Of a DNA stretch of 64,000 bases, positions 9,109 to 64,000 are shown piece by piece (position 1 is the first letter of the stretch; every line of letters begins with the position of its first letter). Under the pieces are notes generated by a model. That model worked only from the letters and a program-made list of their open reading frames with translations. It did not search any database and was not told the DNA's origin. Source of the stretch: Plantibacter sp. ME-Dv--P-122b. Its GTDB lineage: Bacteria; Actinomycetota; Actinomycetes; Actinomycetales; Microbacteriaceae. The stretch is from the NCBI RefSeq assembly GCF_030209375.1, contig NZ_JARVSC010000006.1:248001-312000 (forward strand). The letters run 5' to 3'. A program made the translations under genes and the position numbers.

Positions 9109-9137
9109 TCCCCGCTCGTCCAGCCGCACCGAGTCAG

Positions 9138-9169
9138 AACGCCCGCCCCGATCCGTCGGGGCGGGCGTT
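9138..9169. terminator. Bidirectional intrinsic-type terminator
   Basis: A perfect 14-bp inverted repeat (arms 9138-9151 and 9156-9169, loop TCCG) lies between the convergent ilvC and fucosidase genes. There is no U-tract, as is usual for actinobacterial terminators. Its symmetry lets it serve both strands. Confidence 0.85.
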
Positions 9170-9188
9170 CCGTCGTCTGCGGGAGACC

Positions 9189-22574: not shown

Positions 22575-22627
22575 CGAGCGGGCGGCGCCCGACCGGCGCC
22601 GTTCTCCACGCTGTGAAAGAGGTCACC

Positions 22628-24151
22628 GTGTCCACCGCCACCGAACCCAACGCCGTCGCCGCTCCCCGTGCCGGTCGGCGAGCCTGGTTCGCGCTCGCCG
22701 TCCTCATGCTCCCCGTCCTGCTGGTGTCGGTCGACAACACGGTCCTCAACTTCGCGCTGCCCGCGATCTCGAGCGCGCTCACCCCGACCGGGACGCAGCT
22801 GCTCTGGATCGTCGACGTCTACCCGCTGGTCCTCGCCGGCCTGCTCGTGTCGATGGGCAGCCTCGGCGACCGCATCGGTCGTCGTCGCCTCCTGCTCATC
22901 GGCTCCATCGGATTCGGTGTCGTCTCCGTCGCAGCGGCGTTCGCGCCCAGCGCCGAGCTCCTGATCGCGGCTCGGGCGGCGCTCGGGTTCTTCGGAGCGA
23001 TGCTCATGCCGTCGACGCTCTCGCTACTGCGGAACATCTTCCTCGACCGCGACCAGCGACGGTTCGCCATCGCCGTCTGGGCCAGCGGGTTCGCCGCCGG
23101 CAGCGCGCTCGGACCGATCGTCGGTGGGATCATCCTCGAGCACTTCGCCTGGGGTGCCGTGTTCCTGCTCGCCGTCCCGGTCCTCCTGCCGCTCGTCGTC
23201 CTCGCGCCCTTCCTCATCCCCGAGTCGAAGGACCCGAACCCCGGACGCATCGACGTCCCGAGCATCCTGCTCATCCTCCTGACGATGACGCCGCTCGTGT
23301 TCAGCATCAAGCACCTGGCGGAAGCCGGCTTCGACGTGCTCACGGTCGTCTCGATGGTCGTCGGCGTGGTCAGCGGCGTCCTGTTCATCCGCCGTCAGCT
23401 CCGCCTCGAGCACCCGCTGCTCGACCTGAGCCTGTTCCGGCGGGCCTCGTTCAGCGGCGCCGTGGTCATCAACCTGCTGAGCGTCACGGCGCTCGTCGGT
23501 GGGCTGTTCTTCGTGTCGCAGCACCTGCAGCTGGTGCTGGGCCTGCAGCCGCTCGACGCCGGGCTCGTCCTGCTCCCCGGCCTCATCGTGATGATCATCG
23601 CCGGCCTCGTGATCGTGCCCATCTCCAAGCGGGTCCGTCCGGGCATCGTGGTCCCGATCGCACTCGTCGTCTCAGCGGTCGGATACGCCTCCATCGCGAT
23701 CACCGGGGGAGACGTGTCGGCCCTCGGGATCGGCCTCGCGTTCGTCGCGCTCGGGCTCGGCATCGGCTCCGCCGAGACGGTGTCGAACGAGCTCGTGATC
23801 GCGAGTGCGCCGCCGGAGAAGGCCGGGGCTGCGTCCGGTGTCTCCGAGACCGCCTACGAGCTGGGCGCGGTGCTCGGCACGGCGACGCTCGGCACCGTGC
23901 TCACCGCGTCCTACCGTTCCTCGGTCGTCCTCCCGGACGGACTGACAGCCGCCCAGCAGCAGGCGGCGGGGGAGACCTTGGGTGGTGCGGCGAACGTCGC
24001 CGAGCAGCTGCCCGGTGACCTCGCGGGCGCGCTCATGGACTCCGCGCGGCACGCCTTCGACAGCGGTGTCGGTGTCGCAGCGTGGATCGGCGTCGGCCTC
24101 ATCGGGGCCGCCATGCTCGTCGCGGCGATCGGTCTGCGCCGGGTCCGGTAG
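22628..24151 (+). CDS. MFS efflux transporter, DHA2 (14-TMS) type
   Basis: A 507-residue drug:proton antiporter-like protein. Motif A ([17 protein letters not shown]) and motif C-like sequence ([19 protein letters not shown]) are clear. The hydrophobicity suits 14 membrane segments, as in the QacA/SmvA-like subgroup. GTG 22628 is preferred over the in-frame GTG at 22613 because AAAGAGG lies 6 bases before it. It is controlled by the divergent TetR-family gene through the operator in its promoter and followed by a strong hairpin. Quaternary compounds or dyes are possible substrates, but none can be inferred firmly. Confidence 0.9.
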
Positions 24152-24160
24152 GCCTCGGGC

Positions 24161-24192
24161 GATCGTGCCACCCGGAGACGGGTGGCACGATC
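24161..24192 (+). terminator. Terminator after MFS gene
   Basis: A perfect 14-bp inverted repeat (24161-24174 and 24179-24192) with a GAGA loop starts 9 bases after the exporter stop codon. It separates the exporter from leuB. Confidence 0.85.
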
Positions 24193-24251
24193 CACCCGAG
24201 GTCGGAGGCGTTAAGCTGGGCGCACACCGTCGTCGCATCCTCAGGAGTCGC

Positions 24252-41521: not shown

Positions 41522-41590
41522 CCGCAGGAGAGTCGGTCGGAGGCACGGACCGGAACCGCCCCGGAGACACGAAACCCACCCCGGACACAC

Positions 41591-41626
41591 AGAACCGCCC
41601 CTGACGCGAACGTCAGGGGCGGTTCT
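41591..41626. terminator. Bidirectional terminator between SRAP and cspA genes
   Basis: A perfect 16-bp inverted repeat (arms 41591-41606 and 41611-41626, loop CGAA) lies between the convergent genes. A degenerate partial copy of its left arm (GGAACCGCCCC) lies about 40 bases upstream. Confidence 0.88.
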
Positions 41627-41693
41627 CGGTGTCTCAGACGCGAGGGCTGGAATGACCGGCCGCTCGGATCGTCAGCTCCGACTGATCAGAGAA

Positions 41694-57236: not shown

Positions 57237-59405
57237 ATGACGGGGATCGAGCTGGGCACGAAGCTCGGCGGTGTCCTCGGCGGACGAACCGCGACGGCAC
57301 TCCAGAAGGCGTTCGGCGTGGAGACCGTCGGCGACCTCCTCGAGCACTACCCCCGTCGATACGCGAAGCGCGGCGAGCTGACGGTCATCGGCCAGCTGCC
57401 GCTCGGCGAGGACGTGACGATCGTCGCCGACGTCCTCGAGGTCCGCGACCGCCAGATGAAGCAACGCAAGGGCTCCATCCTCGAGGTCGTCATCTCCGAC
57501 GGTCAGGGGCGGCTCAACCTCACCTTCTTCAACCAGCCGTGGCGGGCGAACGAACTCCGGCCGGGCCTGCGTGGGATCTTCGCAGGCAAGGTCGGCGACT
57601 ACCGCGGCAGCTATCAGCTCGCGCACCCGCAGTATCAGCTCTTCCCCGACGACGCCGACGCACCGGCGCTCGCGGACGCCCAGGCGAAGGCGTGGTCTGA
57701 GGCACCCATCCCGATATACCCGGCGACGAGCACGATCACGAGCTGGAACCTCAAGCAGTCCGTGGAGCTGGTGCTCGACGCCCTGCCGCCGCAGGAGGAC
57801 CCCGTCCCCCGGTCGGTCCGGGCGGCGAGGGGTGAGCTCTCCTTCGACGCCGCCATCCGGGCCGTCCACCGCCCGACGGTCGACCGCGACTGGCAGCGCG
57901 GTCGCCGCAGCCTGCGGTACCAGGAGGCGTACCTCCTCCAGACGGCCCTGCTCCAGCAGCGTGCGGCCACCCGTGCGCTGGCGGCCGAACCCCGCGTGCC
58001 GAAGGCCGGCGGCTACCTCGAGCGCCTCGACGCCGCGCTCCCGTTCGAGCTGACCGGCGACCAGCAGACGGTCGGCACGGAGATCGCGGCCGACCTCGCG
58101 CAGCCCAATCCGATGAACCGGCTCGTCCAGGGCGAGGTCGGTTCGGGCAAGACGCTCGTCGCCCTCCGGGCCATGGCGGCCGTCGCCGACAGCGGGGGAC
58201 AGTCAGTGCTACTGGCGCCCACCGAGGTCCTCGCGGCGCAGCACCTGCGGTCGATCGTCCGTTCGCTCGGCCCCGACCTCTCGGCCGAGCTCATGCCGAC
58301 GCTGCTCACCGGCCAGCTGCCGACGTCCGATCGCAAACGGGCGCTGCTGCGGATCGTCGCCGGCCAGGCTCGGATCGTGATCGGGACGCACGCTCTGCTG
58401 GGTGACGCCGTGACCTTCGCCGATCTGGGGATGGTCGTCGTCGACGAACAGCACCGCTTCGGCGTGGAGCAGCGCGACCAGCTCCGTCAGAAGGGACGCA
58501 CACCGCCGCACGTCCTCGTGCTGACCGCGACGCCGATCCCACGGACCGTTGCCATGACCGTCTTCGGCGACCTCGACGTCAGCATCATCAAGGAGCTGCC
58601 ACGCGGGCGGCAGGGGATCGAGAGCTTCGTGGTCGCCCTGGCCGATCACCCGCGGTGGATCTCCCGCGTCTGGGAGCGCCTCGCCGAGGAACTCGCGCAG
58701 GGGCGACAGGGGTTCGTGGTGTGCCCGGCGATCGACGCCAAGGAGGTCGAGCCCGGTGAGGAGCTCGAGGAGGACGTCGACCCGGCGCGCCCGATCGCGT
58801 CCGTGCTCACCACAGTGGAGCAGCTGCGTACCCATCCACTGCTCGCGTCCCGACGCATCGAGGTCCTCCACGGCCGGATGAGCGCGGAGGAGAAGGACCG
58901 GACGATGCGGGCCTTCGCCGCCGGCGAGATCGACGTCCTCGTGGCGACGACGGTGATCGAGGTGGGCGTCGACGTCCCCAACGCCTCGACGATGGTCGTG
59001 CTCGACGCGGAGCGCTTCGGGGTGTCGCAGCTCCACCAGCTCCGCGGACGCGTCGGTCGAGGCGGTGTCCCCGGGCTGTGTCTGCTCGTCACCGCGGCGG
59101 AGGCGGAGAGCACCGCACGGGAGCGCGTCGACGCGGTGGCCGCGACGCTCGACGGCTTCGATCTCGCGCAGGTCGATCTCGAGCTGCGGCGCGAGGGCGA
59201 CGTCCTGGGCAGCATGCAGTCGGGCGGGCGGTCCTCGCTCAAGCTGCTCCGGGTCGTGCACGACAGCGAGGTCATCATCGAGGCGCGGGCGGATGCCGCC
59301 GAGCTCCTCGACACCGATCCCGACCTCGCCGACCACCCGGTGCTGGCCGAAGCGCTCCGCCGGCGCCTCGACGAATCCGACCGCGCCGCGCTCGCCAAGA
59401 ACTGA
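57237..59405 (+). CDS. recG: ATP-dependent DNA helicase RecG
   Basis: Branch-migration helicase that reverses stalled forks. The 722-residue protein has an N-terminal OB wedge domain (RKGSILEVVISDGQGRLNL). Superfamily-2 motifs follow: LVQGEVGSGKTLVALRAM (Walker A), VVVDEQHRFGVEQR (DEQH box), VLTATPIPRTVAMT, and the C-terminal VLVATTVIEVGVDVPNAS and HQLRGRVGRG. ATG 57237 has TAGAAT 7 bases upstream, so the mRNA is near-leaderless. coaD follows after 19 bases. Confidence 0.95.
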   Translation: MTGIELGTKLGGVLGGRTATALQKAFGVETVGDLLEHYPRRYAKRGELTVIGQLPLGEDVTIVADVLEVRDRQMKQRKGSILEVVISDGQGRLNLTFFNQPWRANELRPGLRGIFAGKVGDYRGSYQLAHPQYQLFPDDADAPALADAQAKAWSEAPIPIYPATSTITSWNLKQSVELVLDALPPQEDPVPRSVRAARGELSFDAAIRAVHRPTVDRDWQRGRRSLRYQEAYLLQTALLQQRAATRALAAEPRVPKAGGYLERLDAALPFELTGDQQTVGTEIAADLAQPNPMNRLVQGEVGSGKTLVALRAMAAVADSGGQSVLLAPTEVLAAQHLRSIVRSLGPDLSAELMPTLLTGQLPTSDRKRALLRIVAGQARIVIGTHALLGDAVTFADLGMVVVDEQHRFGVEQRDQLRQKGRTPPHVLVLTATPIPRTVAMTVFGDLDVSIIKELPRGRQGIESFVVALADHPRWISRVWERLAEELAQGRQGFVVCPAIDAKEVEPGEELEEDVDPARPIASVLTTVEQLRTHPLLASRRIEVLHGRMSAEEKDRTMRAFAAGEIDVLVATTVIEVGVDVPNASTMVVLDAERFGVSQLHQLRGRVGRGGVPGLCLLVTAAEAESTARERVDAVAATLDGFDLAQVDLELRREGDVLGSMQSGGRSSLKLLRVVHDSEVIIEARADAAELLDTDPDLADHPVLAEALRRRLDESDRAALAKN

Positions 59406-59424
59406 GCACCGATAGGCTGGCGGC

Positions 59425-59907
59425 ATGAAGCGGATCGCCGTCGTCCCCGGATCGTTCGACCCAGTCACCCTCGGTCACCTGGATGTCATCGAGCGGGCGG
59501 CGCGCATCTTCGACGAGCTGCATGTGCTGGTCGTGCACAACCCCGACAAGTCCGCGCTGCTGCCGATGCCGCAGCGGGTGTCCCTGCTCGAGCGCTCCAT
59601 CGCCGACGGCGGACTGCCCGACAACATCGTCGTCGCGCAGTGGAACGTCGGCCTGCTCGTCGACTACTGCACGGACGTCGGCGCGAGCGTGCTCGTGAAG
59701 GGCATCCGCTCGCAGGTCGACGTCGCCTACGAGACGCCCATGGCCATCATGAACCGCAGTCTCGCCGGTGTGGAGACGGTCTTCCTCCTGCCTGATCCGG
59801 CGCACGCGCACGTCTCCAGTTCACTCGTCCGGCAGGTGGCCGCGCTCGGTGGCGATGTCAGCCCGTACGTTCCGCAGGTGGTGGCGACCTTCCTCCAGGA
59901 GGGCTAG
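59425..59907 (+). CDS. coaD: Phosphopantetheine adenylyltransferase
   Basis: Penultimate step of coenzyme A synthesis, adenylating 4'-phosphopantetheine. The 160-residue protein begins [20 protein letters not shown] with the TxGH nucleotidyltransferase motif, and ends with [18 protein letters not shown] carrying the second SSS signature. ATG 59425 has TAGGCT ending 6 bases upstream, giving a leaderless mRNA independent of recG. The DUF177 gene follows 39 bases downstream. Confidence 0.94.
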
Positions 59908-59946
59908 GGCGTCCTCCCCGTCGGGTTCGGCGTAGAATCGTCGATC

Positions 59947-60531
59947 GTGACTAGGAAGAGAACGAACAATTCGCCGTTCAGCGTCAACGTGCGCGATCTG
60001 GTGAACCGTCCCGGGGAGATGCGCGAGCACGACCTCGAGGTGGTGCTCGCCGAGCGCTGGGGCGAGGGTCTGGTCGCCGTCCAGGAGGGCACGACGCTCT
60101 CCGAGCAGGTGCGTCTCGAGTCCGTGCACGAGGGGATCCTCGTGACCGTCGACGTCGACGCACTGGCGACCGGCGAGTGCGGACGCTGCCTCCGCGACAT
60201 CGAACTGCCTGTCGAAGTCGAGATTCAGGAACTTTTCGCGTATCCTGATTCGGAAGCGTCTGACTTCGAGGTTCACGACGACCACGTGGATCTTGAACCT
60301 CTGGTCAGAGATGCGGTAGTTCTCGCATTACCGTTTCAGCCGGTGTGCCAGCCGGATTGCCCCGGACTCGACCCCGAGACCGGTGAGCGGCTGGCCGAAC
60401 GTCCGGAACGACACCCTCACGACGTCGCAGATCCTCGCTGGTCTGCGCTCGCGGGCTTGTCCTCAGACTCCGTACTTGACACAGACGCCAGTAGCGCCCA
60501 GCGCGCCACTGCAGACACAGAAGAGAGATAG
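59947..60531 (+). CDS. DUF177 (YceD-like) protein
   Basis: A 194-residue member of the DUF177/YceD family, encoded before rpmF in most bacteria and connected with 23S rRNA or ribosome accumulation. The conserved core is TGECGRCLRDIELPVEVEIQ, with the later CQPDCPGLDPETGERLAER and DPRWSALAGL. Four cysteines (two pairs) could bind metal. The start is GTG 59947, with TAGAAT 8 bases upstream. Codons between about 60221 and 60360 are less GC3-biased than in neighbouring genes. rpmF begins 3 bases after the stop. Confidence 0.88.
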   Translation: MTRKRTNNSPFSVNVRDLVNRPGEMREHDLEVVLAERWGEGLVAVQEGTTLSEQVRLESVHEGILVTVDVDALATGECGRCLRDIELPVEVEIQELFAYPDSEASDFEVHDDHVDLEPLVRDAVVLALPFQPVCQPDCPGLDPETGERLAERPERHPHDVADPRWSALAGLSSDSVLDTDASSAQRATADTEER

Positions 60532-60534
60532 ATC

Positions 60535-60744
60535 ATGGCTGGAAACCCCCCGAAGCGGAAGGTCTCGCGCTCGAACACCCGCTCGCGTCGCTCGCAGTGG
60601 AAGGCCGCCGTGCCGACGCTCGTGAAGACGGTGGAGAACGGCCGCGTCACGTACAGCCTGCCGCACCGCGCCAAGGTCGTCGAGGACTCGCAGGGCACCG
60701 CCCTGTACCTCGAGTACAAGGGCCGCAAGGTCGCAGACGTCTGA
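60535..60744 (+). CDS. rpmF: 50S ribosomal protein L32 (zinc-independent form)
   Basis: A 69-residue basic protein with the L32 core [24 protein letters not shown]. The family zinc ribbon is absent: no cysteine occurs anywhere, so this is the C-minus paralogue class that replaces the zinc form under zinc limitation or serves as the sole copy. The C-terminal tail ([14 protein letters not shown]) is longer than in many L32 proteins. It lies between the DUF177 gene and rnc, the classical yceD-rpmF order. Confidence 0.93.
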
Positions 60745-60775
60745 TCCGCGCGTTGAACGTCCGCGTTCGAACAGC

Positions 60776-61513
60776 GTGAACACGAATCATTCCGACCACA
60801 CCGGAATCGGCTCCGCATCGGAGACCGATCCCGGTGTGGTCGTTTTCGCACGGCAACTGGGCGTCGACGTCTCGTACGAGCTGCTCGATCTGGCGCTGAC
60901 GCACCGCTCATACGCGTACGAGCACGGCGGGCTCCCGCACAACGAGCGCCTCGAGTTCCTCGGCGACTCGATCCTCGGGCAGGCCGTCACCGTCATGCTC
61001 TACCGCGACTTCCCGCACCTCGACGAAGGGCAGCTGGCGAAGCGACGCGCGAGCCTCGTCTCGACGATCGCGCTCGCCGAGGTCGCACGCTCGATCGGAC
61101 TGGGCGAGCGGATCAAGCTGGGTAAGGGCGAAGACCAGACCGGTGGTCGCGACAAGGCGTCCATCCTGGCCGACACGATGGAGGCCGTCATCGGCGCGAC
61201 GTACCTGTCGGCCGGTCCCGATGCGGCGACAGCACTCGTCCTGCGCCTGGTGAACCCCCTGCTCGAGAACCCCGAGCGCTTCGGGGCGGCGATGGACCCG
61301 AAGACGAGCCTCCAAGAGGCCGCCGCGGCCATCGGTGCACCGGCGCCCGTCTACGAGATCGCCAGCTCCGGCCCCGACCACAACCGGCGGTTCGTCGCGA
61401 CGGTCACCGTCGGCACCGCTGTCACGGCGACGGGCTCCGGCACGAGCAAGAAGCACGCCGAGATGGCGGCGGCCCTGGAAGCCTGGTCGAGGATCAGTGC
61501 CGGAACTCCCTGA
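60776..61513 (+). CDS. rnc: Ribonuclease III
   Basis: Double-strand-specific RNase for rRNA and mRNA processing. The 245-residue protein has the catalytic signature NERLEFLGDSILG (56-68), DTMEAVIGATYL and a C-terminal dsRNA-binding domain (KTSLQEAAAAIGAPAPVYEI, GSGTSKKHAEMAAA). GTG 60776 is used. An alternative in-frame GTG at 60836 would remove 20 poorly conserved residues. A long hairpin (60793-60842) lies inside this 5' part. mutM overlaps its 3' end by 17 bases. Confidence 0.93.
   Translation: MNTNHSDHTGIGSASETDPGVVVFARQLGVDVSYELLDLALTHRSYAYEHGGLPHNERLEFLGDSILGQAVTVMLYRDFPHLDEGQLAKRRASLVSTIALAEVARSIGLGERIKLGKGEDQTGGRDKASILADTMEAVIGATYLSAGPDAATALVLRLVNPLLENPERFGAAMDPKTSLQEAAAAIGAPAPVYEIASSGPDHNRRFVATVTVGTAVTATGSGTSKKHAEMAAALEAWSRISAGTP
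60793..60842 (+). other. Long RNA hairpin at the 5' end of rnc
   Basis: Positions 60793-60804 pair perfectly with 60831-60842 (12 bp). An A/C mismatch follows, then 5 bp (60806-60810 with 60825-60829), a bulged A124 and 5 further bp (60811-60815 with 60819-60823) closing a CAT loop. The stem of about 22 bp has GTTTTC just after it. It could be an RNase III substrate in the rnc message or a terminator of rpmF. Confidence 0.7.
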
Positions 61514-62387
61514 GGTCGAGGTCGTCCGCGCCGGCCTGGAGCCCGCCGTCAGCGGTGCGACAATCGCCGGCGTCGAGGTCTTCGACGAGCGCTCCCTGCG
61601 CCGCCACGCGAGTGGTGTCGCCGACTTCACCGCCCGGCTGACGGGGCGGACCATCCGATCGGCCGTCCGACGCGGGAAGTTCCTCTGGTTCCCCCTCGAC
61701 GACGATGAAGCGATCGTCGGTCACCTGGGCATGAGCGGGCAGATGCTGCTCCGGTCGCCCGGCGACGACGCCGACCGGCTCCTGCGCATCCGCTTGCAGT
61801 TGGAGCATCCCGAGCACGGCGAGCTCTGGCTGCACTTCGTGGATCAGCGGATCTTCGGCTCCATGGCGGTGACCGCGCTGGTCCCGACGACGGACGGAGC
61901 CGCGGGCGGGTTCGGCGACGAGGTCGCGATGGTGCCCGACCAGGTCGCGCACATCGCTCGCGACCCGATGGACCCGGCCTTCGACGACGCCGGCTTCCTC
62001 CGACGTCTGCGCGAGAAACGCACCGGTGTGAAGCGCGCACTCCTCGACCAGACGCTCGTGAGTGGCATCGGCAACATCTATGCGGACGAGTCGCTCTGGG
62101 CGGCACGCATCCACCCCGAGCAGGAGACCGCCCGTCTCGGCCTCGGACGCGCCGTCCGACTGCTCGAGGAGGTCCGTGCCGTGCTCACCAAGGCCCTGGC
62201 CGAGGGCGGGACGAGCTTCGACGCCCAGTACGTGAACGTCAACGGTCAGGCGGGGTACTTCGCCCACAGCCTGAACGCCTACGGCAGACAGGGCAAGCCG
62301 TGCGCGCGCTGCGGCACGCTCATCGTGCGTGAGCAGTTCATGAACCGCGGTTCGCACCGCTGCCCCGTGTGCCAGCGCCGCACCTGA
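61497..62387 (+). CDS. mutM: Formamidopyrimidine-DNA glycosylase
   Basis: Bifunctional glycosylase/AP lyase that excises 8-oxoguanine and formamidopyrimidines. The 296-residue protein starts at GTG 61497 with PELPEVEVV, whose Pro2 and Glu3 are the catalytic residues. Other landmarks are VRRGKFLWFPL with the conserved Lys, the H2TH region DQTLVSGIGNIYADE, and the C-terminal zinc finger CARCGTLIVREQ...HRCPVC. It overlaps rnc by 17 bases, as in many actinobacteria. Confidence 0.95.
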   Translation: MPELPEVEVVRAGLEPAVSGATIAGVEVFDERSLRRHASGVADFTARLTGRTIRSAVRRGKFLWFPLDDDEAIVGHLGMSGQMLLRSPGDDADRLLRIRLQLEHPEHGELWLHFVDQRIFGSMAVTALVPTTDGAAGGFGDEVAMVPDQVAHIARDPMDPAFDDAGFLRRLREKRTGVKRALLDQTLVSGIGNIYADESLWAARIHPEQETARLGLGRAVRLLEEVRAVLTKALAEGGTSFDAQYVNVNGQAGYFAHSLNAYGRQGKPCARCGTLIVREQFMNRGSHRCPVCQRRT

Positions 62388-62390
62388 CGA

Positions 62391-63473
62391 TCAGTCACTG
62401 CGGGGGAGTCGGCGCTGCCACTCACCCGAGTAGCCGACGATGCGGAACCCGAGTCGGTCGTTGATCGCGAGCATGTGCTCGTTCTCGTCGGCGTTCCAGG
62501 TGTAGATCCGGGACCGCTCGGGTGCCCGATCGGCCAGCGCCAGGAGGTTCGCCGCTTTCATCCAGAGTCCGAGGCCGTGTCCCCGGTGGTCGGCGAGCAC
62601 GAGCGTGTCCCACTGCTCCGCGTGTTCCTTGCCCTCGCCGAGGACGAGCTCGCTGTACCCGGCGACCGCGCCGCTGTCGCGGTGGACGGCGGCGACGACG
62701 ATCGCGTGGTCGCCAGACGCCGCCAGCTGTGCCTCGCGGGCGCGGACCCGCTCGGGCGTCCAGACCTCGGGGTCGAGTTCCAGATCGGCGGCCGGGATGT
62801 CGGTCGCCATGTGTTCGCGGGCTGTGGCGAGCGATCCGAGCAGCTCGTCGGGGGTGCGGTCCACCCAGTGCACGAGGCGGTACTCGTGTCCGGCTCGGGC
62901 GGGAGACGTCGCGACGATGTCCGGCAGCTCCCCGAGCATCGAGGCGAGGTCGCAGCGATTGGTCCGCTCGACCTGGGCGAGGGCGTATCCACGATCGAGC
63001 ATGAACCGGCTGGCCGCGGCGTTCGCAGGGATAGCCCGTTCGCCGACGCTCGCACCGAGGAGTGGTTCGTCGACCGGGATGTCGTCGACGGCGTGCTGGG
63101 TGAAGGCGGTCACCGTCGGGCGGCCGGCCGCGAGGGCCCGTCGCTCCAGCTCCGACAGGAGCGCTGTGCCGATCCCACGACGACGCGCCTCGGGGAGGAC
63201 ACCGACGTCCAGGGAGGCCGTCACCGCGTCGGCCTCGGTGCCGTACCCGAGCCAGCCGCGACCGACCACACGGCCGTCGAGGGCGGCGGCGAGCAGGACG
63301 CGTCGCTGGAACCGCTGGTCGCGGTACTCGGGAAGGGTCATGGCGGAGGTCAGGGCGAAGTCGTCGGTGGACCAGATCTCCGCTTCGAGCGTGTTCGCGA
63401 CCTCCTGGACCGCTTCGAACACGGCTGAGCTCCCGGACGCCGGGATCTCGACCTCGTCGATCGTGACACGCAT
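62391..63473 (-). CDS. Tandem GNAT-domain acetyltransferase
   Basis: A 360-residue protein with two GNAT folds. The first has the acetyl-CoA loop [18 protein letters not shown] (near residues 92-110). The second has [19 protein letters not shown] (near 295-313). They are linked by a variable middle region. A GGGAGGGAG ribosome binding site precedes the ATG. Such double-GNAT proteins resemble mycothiol-synthase-type and antibiotic-modifying enzymes, but no specific substrate can be assigned. It is convergent with mutM (3-base gap) and divergent from smc. Confidence 0.85.
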
Positions 63474-63622
63474 CGTCGACTCCCTCCCACGCCAGACCGT
63501 CCTGGGTGATGCGGTCCATGCTACGACCGCCCCGGCGGGCCGGCACAGCGTGGTGTCCCTCGTCCGTCCGCGGATTCGCTACCGTAGTGCACAGCATCCG
63601 CGACGCGGGAGAGGAGGTGCGC

Positions 63623-64000
63623 GTGTACCTGAAGAGCCTGACGCTCAAAGGGTTCAAGTCCTTCGCGCACCCCACCACCTTCGCGTTCGAGCAGGGCGTC
63701 ACCTGCGTCGTGGGTCCAAACGGCTCCGGCAAGTCGAACGTCGTCGACGCGCTCGCCTGGGTGATGGGCGAGCAGGGGGCGAAGACCCTCCGCGGCGGCA
63801 AGATGGAGGACGTCATCTTCGCCGGCACGTCGACCAGGGGACCGCTTGGTCGAGCCGAGGTCACGCTCACCATCGACAACAGCGACGGCGCGCTCCCCAT
63901 CGAGTACACCGAGGTGACGATCAGCCGCACCCTGTTCCGCAACGGCGGGAGCGAGTACGCCATCAACGGCGACACGTGCCGGTTGCTCGACGTCCAGGAG
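63623..64000 (+). CDS. smc: Chromosome segregation protein SMC (5' part)
   Basis: The first 126 codons of SMC, cut by the window edge. It starts at GTG 63623, with GAGGAGG 5 bases upstream, encoding [20 protein letters not shown]. The Walker A loop [20 protein letters not shown] (31-50) and the conserved [14 protein letters not shown] follow. SMC with ScpAB condenses and organises the chromosome. Its place after rnc-mutM matches the usual rnc-mutM-smc order in actinobacteria, here with a divergent GNAT gene between. Confidence 0.95.

Follow-up and report, generated by a model that had tools for sequence, protein, structure and literature searches.

In Escherichia coli, the leader element of rnc, the gene for RNase III, which cleaves double-stranded RNA, is named rncO. 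In Streptomyces coelicolor, where rnc is also called absB, its autoregulation was reportedly described by Xu in 2008. The passages of Lioliou 2012 (PMC3386247) that concern rnc describe RNase III cutting a 5'-terminal stem-loop of its own mRNA in E. coli and, in Staphylococcus aureus, cutting a stem in the rnc coding sequence at U+296, which lowers its own synthesis. The same passages say that the S. aureus stem is conserved among Staphylococci, and they also cite self-cleavage of rnc in Streptomyces. For S. coelicolor absB, excerpts of PMC10126417 report two RNase III cut sites, one upstream and one in a stem-loop inside the rnc cistron, and excerpts of PMC5775266 give the gene order as a hypothetical gene, rpmF and rnc. 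In Streptomyces venezuelae, RNase J may clear the fragment left by such a cut, according to part of PMC12096830.

We examined a hairpin near the start of rnc in Plantibacter sp. ME-Dv--P-122b, within a 64,000-nucleotide stretch of DNA (the window). The original prediction, made from the letters of the window, was that this hairpin could be an autoregulatory switch in the rnc coding region or, if rnc began further downstream, an untranslated element or a terminator of rpmF. We consider that the stem is a putative RNase III cut site in the enzyme's own mRNA, which would give negative feedback, and we assign this reading a probability of roughly three in four on the basis of comparative analysis.

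The rnc gene (60776..61513, + strand) has a GTG start at 60776 and encodes a 245-residue RNase III, whose assignment comes from profile matches in Pfam (Ribonucleas_3_3, 1e-37; Ribonuclease_3, 5e-23; dsrm, 7e-13) and from a score above the TIGR02191 cut-off. Upstream on the same strand are rpmF, encoding ribosomal protein L32 (60535..60744, PF01783), and yceD (DUF177; 59947..60531, PF02620), the first gene of a yceD-rpmF-rnc operon that we presume from gene spacing. The gene order is a cytidylyltransferase-like gene, which we named coaD by its place and family, then yceD, rpmF, rnc and a gene that we take to be mutM-like from its PELPEVE start. A possible GTG start of the mutM-like frame lies 17 nt before the end of rnc (window 61497-61513), so that these two genes would overlap.

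Two GTG codons were considered as the start of rnc. The codon at 60776 is the first ATG, GTG or TTG after the stop of the frame and the only start codon before 60836, and it is present in all seven Plantibacter genomes compared. The alternative, GTG 60836-60838, reads GTC in two of the seven (L007 and L008); between it and the codons for the LTHRS motif, at 60896, the frame holds zero ATG, GTG or TTG. We rejected the downstream codon because it is not conserved, and the start is therefore placed at 60776, with the stem within codons. This settles a question that the original prediction had left between the two starts. We note that the 225 residues from 60836 onward match Plantibacter flavus VKM Ac-2504 (L009) at 100%.

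The hairpin occupies 60793..60842 on the + strand, which corresponds to codons 6-23 of rnc with the start at 60776, as originally described. Its predicted geometry also agreed with that description: 22 base pairs in three helices of 12, 5 and 5, with one mismatch, one bulge and a three-base loop. The lower stem pairs 60793..60804 with 60831..60842, the 3' arm containing the rejected start codon. The two upper stems lie on a 5' arm at 60806..60815 and a 3' arm at 60819..60829, and pair 60806-60810 with 60825-60829 and 60811-60815 with 60819-60823. The interruptions are an A60805·C60830 mismatch and a bulged A60824, and the loop is CAT at 60816-60818.

This stem was more stable than expected from either composition or coding. 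The minimum free energy of 60780-60860 was -42.3 kcal/mol, compared with -23.7 (sd 3.2) for dinucleotide shuffles (z -5.9), and none of 200 shuffles folded as well. For a null that respects the protein, we generated synonymous recodings of the peptide, with codons drawn according to local usage, and compared local folds. None of 150 recodings of 105 nt of the window's rnc was as stable (z -3.7), nor was any of 1000 recodings of the first 135 nt (z -3.26). A crude script called 196 other gene starts over about 300 kb of the genome, with rnc excluded by an overlap rule and scored separately; their lowest z was -2.79 and their mean was +0.39. Energy alone was dropped as evidence, since single hairpins of -41.25 kcal/mol or lower occur at 39 distinct places in the same ~300 kb. 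Fifteen of these are inside called genes (rnc included), and two of the fifteen lie within 60 nt of the gene start, those of rnc and one other gene. The other, the sole such case in ~300 kb, is in a family-3 solute-binding protein gene (L233; G000:C6, 12364-13260, minus strand), with the stem centred about 56 nt after the gene start. Very strong stems were also seen elsewhere in the window, at 24151-24204, 9123-9182 and 41579-41638 (-46 to -49 kcal/mol on the better strand); that at 24151-24204, which starts where the ORF 22613-24151 stops, resembles a terminator.

Excess folding at this place was found across actinomycete rnc genes. We collected 220 rnc loci; 219 had the LTHRS anchor, and dropping eight that shared the preceding 105 nt with another locus left 211. 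In single analyses, rows lacking an anchor were left out: L050 and L060 in one recoding set and L122 in another. The nearest relatives were the best 80 of 561 confirmed matches to the window's RNase III. A further 60 order-level regions, spread over families and genera, were picked before folding among the matches listed from 297 genomes, and 20 class-level regions were picked likewise among those listed from 148 genomes. The sample is uneven over the phylum and consists mostly of Micrococcales. For comparison with mutM and rpmF, we used the 184 of 211 rnc loci without a stop codon in the 105 nt, and gene starts located by motif (186 and 187, respectively). Under the synonymous null, the 105 nt before LTHRS had a mean z of -1.83, with 51% of loci at z<-2, compared with -0.34 and 5% at the start of mutM and -0.29 and 6% at the start of rpmF. 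Within paired loci, z was lower for rnc than for mutM in 133 of 165 cases and than for rpmF in 134 of 164. The excess was local, as tiles placed progressively deeper in rnc had mean z values of -2.05, -0.99, -0.76, -0.48, -0.44 and -0.21 (n=101).

The element was common but not universal: when the region examined was extended up to 141 nt, 93 of 211 loci were at z<-2 and 46 at z<-3, and 118 were without a clear stem (z>=-2). All analysed loci of families f6 (13), f7 (5) and f17 (9), four of five in f14, and all nine of genus g107, which is probably Streptomyces, were at z<-2. In contrast, no sampled locus of f12 (3), f31 (6), f32 (4) or f34 (3) had the stem (all at z>=-2), and four of five in f21 also lacked it.

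The place of the stem shifted between groups, with the apex ranging from about -96 to -30 nt relative to LTHRS. The apex was near -84 in Plantibacter and most Curtobacterium, and near -96 in one Curtobacterium (L041); a few loci had it near -72 to -57. It was near -46 in f17, one Clavibacter and loci near Agromyces, and near -30 in Microbacterium, Leifsonia, f6, f7 and g107. In a quick phylogeny of 93 rnc proteins, built without the stem codons, four position classes required 10 changes on the best tree, compared with 36.5 for shuffled labels, and well-supported branches alone required just 1 to 3 changes per class. By eye, the stem sequences of Plantibacter, Curtobacterium and Microbacterium are unrelated. 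Two Cryobacterium loci (L046 and L051) have a strong stem further upstream, about -141 to -85 nt from LTHRS and with other letters, with best local folds of -39.2 and -38.0 kcal/mol, respectively. The f17 loci (L134-L141 and L177) carry a third kind of rnc stem, long and interrupted, from about -81 to -11 nt, which starts CAGCGG(C/T)CCGTCG in six of nine loci.

These positions bear on whether the stem might instead control translation, by slowing ribosomes or hindering access to the start, without cleavage by RNase III. Such a role would suit the stems of Plantibacter and Curtobacterium, which begin 17 nt from the first base of the GTG and 6 nt from that of the ATG, respectively, near the initiating ribosome. 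However, the stems of Microbacterium and f6/f7 sit deeper in the gene. The starts of mutM and rpmF also showed no such excess, so the tie to rnc would need explaining, and self-cleavage has been published for S. aureus and Streptomyces. We consider control of translation alone unlikely.

Less likely still is that the stem terminates or attenuates the rpmF transcript, leaving rnc to be expressed by read-through or from a separate promoter. Consistent with a terminator, the window's stem starts 49 nt beyond the end of rpmF, and GTTTTC comes after it. Nevertheless, a terminator scan gave zero + strand sites at the stem, and of the same-strand U-run that should follow the G+C-rich stem of an intrinsic terminator, the window has only GTTTTC. 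The stem of Curtobacterium is followed by TCGTCTGC and that of most Microbacterium rows by CTGGAGTTGGC, neither containing a U-run, and in both genera the stem is within rnc codons. No sigma-70-like promoter was found in 60000-61800, which is weak evidence in this phylum. The original suggestion of a terminator was weakened by these relatives.

The original prediction named compensatory change in relatives as its check. We found such change in three groups, using pairing tests of 500 shuffles that ignore relatedness and structures named from the same sequences. In the 13-bp stem of Microbacterium (34 distinct rows from 36 loci), 96.6% of cells were paired and 23 were double-change cells, both values being reached by 0/500 shuffles; the counts of double-change pairs (3; 92/500 shuffles) and of further pair types (9; 31/500) were not exceptional. 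The 16-bp stem of f6/f7, aligned from 18 of 19 fetched loci (L122 was left out for want of an anchor), had 97.6% of cells paired and 22 double-change cells in seven pairs (0/500), and one of its pairs was seen as GC, CG, AU, UA and UG. For Curtobacterium, with a 21-bp stem and 12 distinct rows from 13 loci, 97.6% of cells were paired and four were double-change cells (0/500), and the pair types were not exceptional (48/500). On these comparative grounds, we conclude that selection acts on an RNA stem in the rnc frame, beyond the demands of codons and protein, in many Micrococcales and the Streptomyces-like genus. What the alignments conserve is structure and rough place, not sequence.

Plantibacter alone gave no significant result, in a small sample of four distinct rows: one pair was changed on both sides, and the number of cells changed was matched by 86/500 shuffles. 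The pair 60806-60829 is A-U in two of these rows and G-C in two, and L007 and L008 have G-C at the position of the window's A·C mismatch. The stem of L007 and L010 was weaker (-35.3 kcal/mol), with 9/150 recodings as good. The original idea of an autoregulatory switch in the coding region is thus upheld for its coding position and for compensation in relatives, and not for pairing within Plantibacter. The window also contains the site corresponding to the downstream hairpin of Microbacterium, Leifsonia and f6/f7, whose codons there read KLxVDIDxEL (60854..60883, + strand, in register to the LTHRS codons). This site forms no hairpin in the window, where 5 of 12 pairs remain, and it is broken in Plantibacter (5 to 7 of 12 pairs). 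Curtobacterium retains 7 to 11, so the upstream and downstream sites are not strictly exclusive.

The folded strand is probably the sense mRNA. Among mismatches in 63 distinct cores, G·T outnumbered A·C by 24 to 7, a count uncorrected for composition, and this excess favours sense RNA. We note that the window's stem is more stable on the antisense strand than on the sense strand (-45.9 vs -41.3 kcal/mol), and that the window's A·C mismatch points the opposite way. A terminator-like site on the minus strand (60807-60789; 8 pairs, T-rich tail) overlaps the 5' arm of the stem, and an antisense rnc transcript has been reported in S. coelicolor, in the part of PMC5775266 that treats this locus. The tolerance of G·T over A·C also argues against a DNA palindrome in rnc to which a transcription factor binds. 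Perfect or near-perfect palindromes are frequent among the downstream stems, as that explanation would have it, but pairing is kept while letters change, and the site shifts by ~54 nt between genera whose stems share no evident sequence, so we regard such a binding site as very improbable.

Selection on pairing may extend to the codons and residues of the protein. At the downstream site, 91 of 211 loci were chosen for pairing, and their opposed codons were Gly GGG/Pro CCC (30), Arg CGC/Ala GCG (20), Gly GGC/Ala GCC (14), Arg AGG/Pro CCT (5), Arg CGT/Ala GCG (4), Gly GGT/Thr ACC (3) and Gly GGA/Ser TCC (2), with 13 others mostly mismatched. Compensation crosses amino acids here, as Gly GGN stands opposite NCC codons of Pro, Ala, Thr or Ser. 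Among the 86 loci with GGN and NCC, unselected for pairing, the wobble base of GGN matched the first base of NCC in 55, compared with 30.2 expected, and none of 20000 permutations reached this value when ancestry was ignored. A tree-aware version of the test had eight supported pairs, of which about 3.5 to 3.8 went the same way, 0 to 0.2 went the opposite way and the others were equal; its median p values of 0.25 and 0.22 reflect too few independent pairs. The Arg codon AGG made up 5 of 32 at the downstream site vs 68 of 3052 in the rest of rnc. That the stems arose by chance, or simply follow from encoding a conserved N-terminus at high GC, would agree with the partly palindromic codons of VDID and with the loci at z>=-2, but is just as improbable as a protein-binding palindrome, given that synonymous recodings rarely reach such stems in stem-bearing loci and that residues, too, change in pairing-compatible ways.

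Together, a hairpin of the type cut by RNase III that is kept while its letters change and its position shifts suggests that RNase III probably holds down its own synthesis by cleaving the rnc mRNA. Under this feedback reading, plentiful free RNase III would bind and cut the stem in the yceD-rpmF-rnc transcript. Once severed from its start codon, the remainder of rnc would yield no further RNase III and would decay, and the yceD-rpmF fragment could remain translatable. Ribosomes that load on rnc would compete with RNase III by opening the stem. We give about even odds to a broader proposal, in which, across Micrococcales and Streptomyces-like bacteria, this self-targeting stem has several times been retained, lost and formed anew at other places near the rnc start. 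In that proposal, selection for the stem would dictate rare codons (AGG) and N-terminal residues, as Arg/Ala, Arg/Pro, Gly/Pro, Gly/Ala, Gly/Thr and Gly/Ser pairs, and feedback would be kept by structure, free of sequence and exact position.

If correct, RNase III feedback would be widespread and open to testing across a large bacterial group, and rnc would offer a clean example of an mRNA whose fold shapes the residues of its own protein product. A stem that moves and varies in its letters would escape searches that rely on sequence or on a single fixed model. There was no Rfam family match at the stem, the sole match in 58000-64000 being ASdes (E 0.83), elsewhere, and we found no account of this rnc element in these genera in the open-licence literature. 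The synonymous-codon null does detect such stems, and could reveal other hidden RNase targets in coding sequence.

Compared with the described systems, as far as the cited excerpts present them, the Plantibacter stem resembles that of S. aureus in lying within the rnc coding sequence. It differs in that the S. aureus cut falls deep within the gene, where the helix is long and irregular, whereas here the stem is in the first codons, is nearly continuous and varies in place by genus. The E. coli element, a 5'-terminal stem-loop, is likewise distinct from a stem in codons. The original contrast in place with known elements held for E. coli and is less sharp for Streptomyces, where the excerpts put one self-cleavage site inside rnc and give the same gene order as here. 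In all nine sampled g107 loci, a strong stem falls between -58 and 0 relative to LTHRS and may be the in-cistron absB site of S. coelicolor; the Plantibacter stem is further upstream and of another sequence. Coding-region self-cleavage is thus known from S. aureus and Streptomyces, and what would be new here is its widespread, shifting and protein-shaping form.
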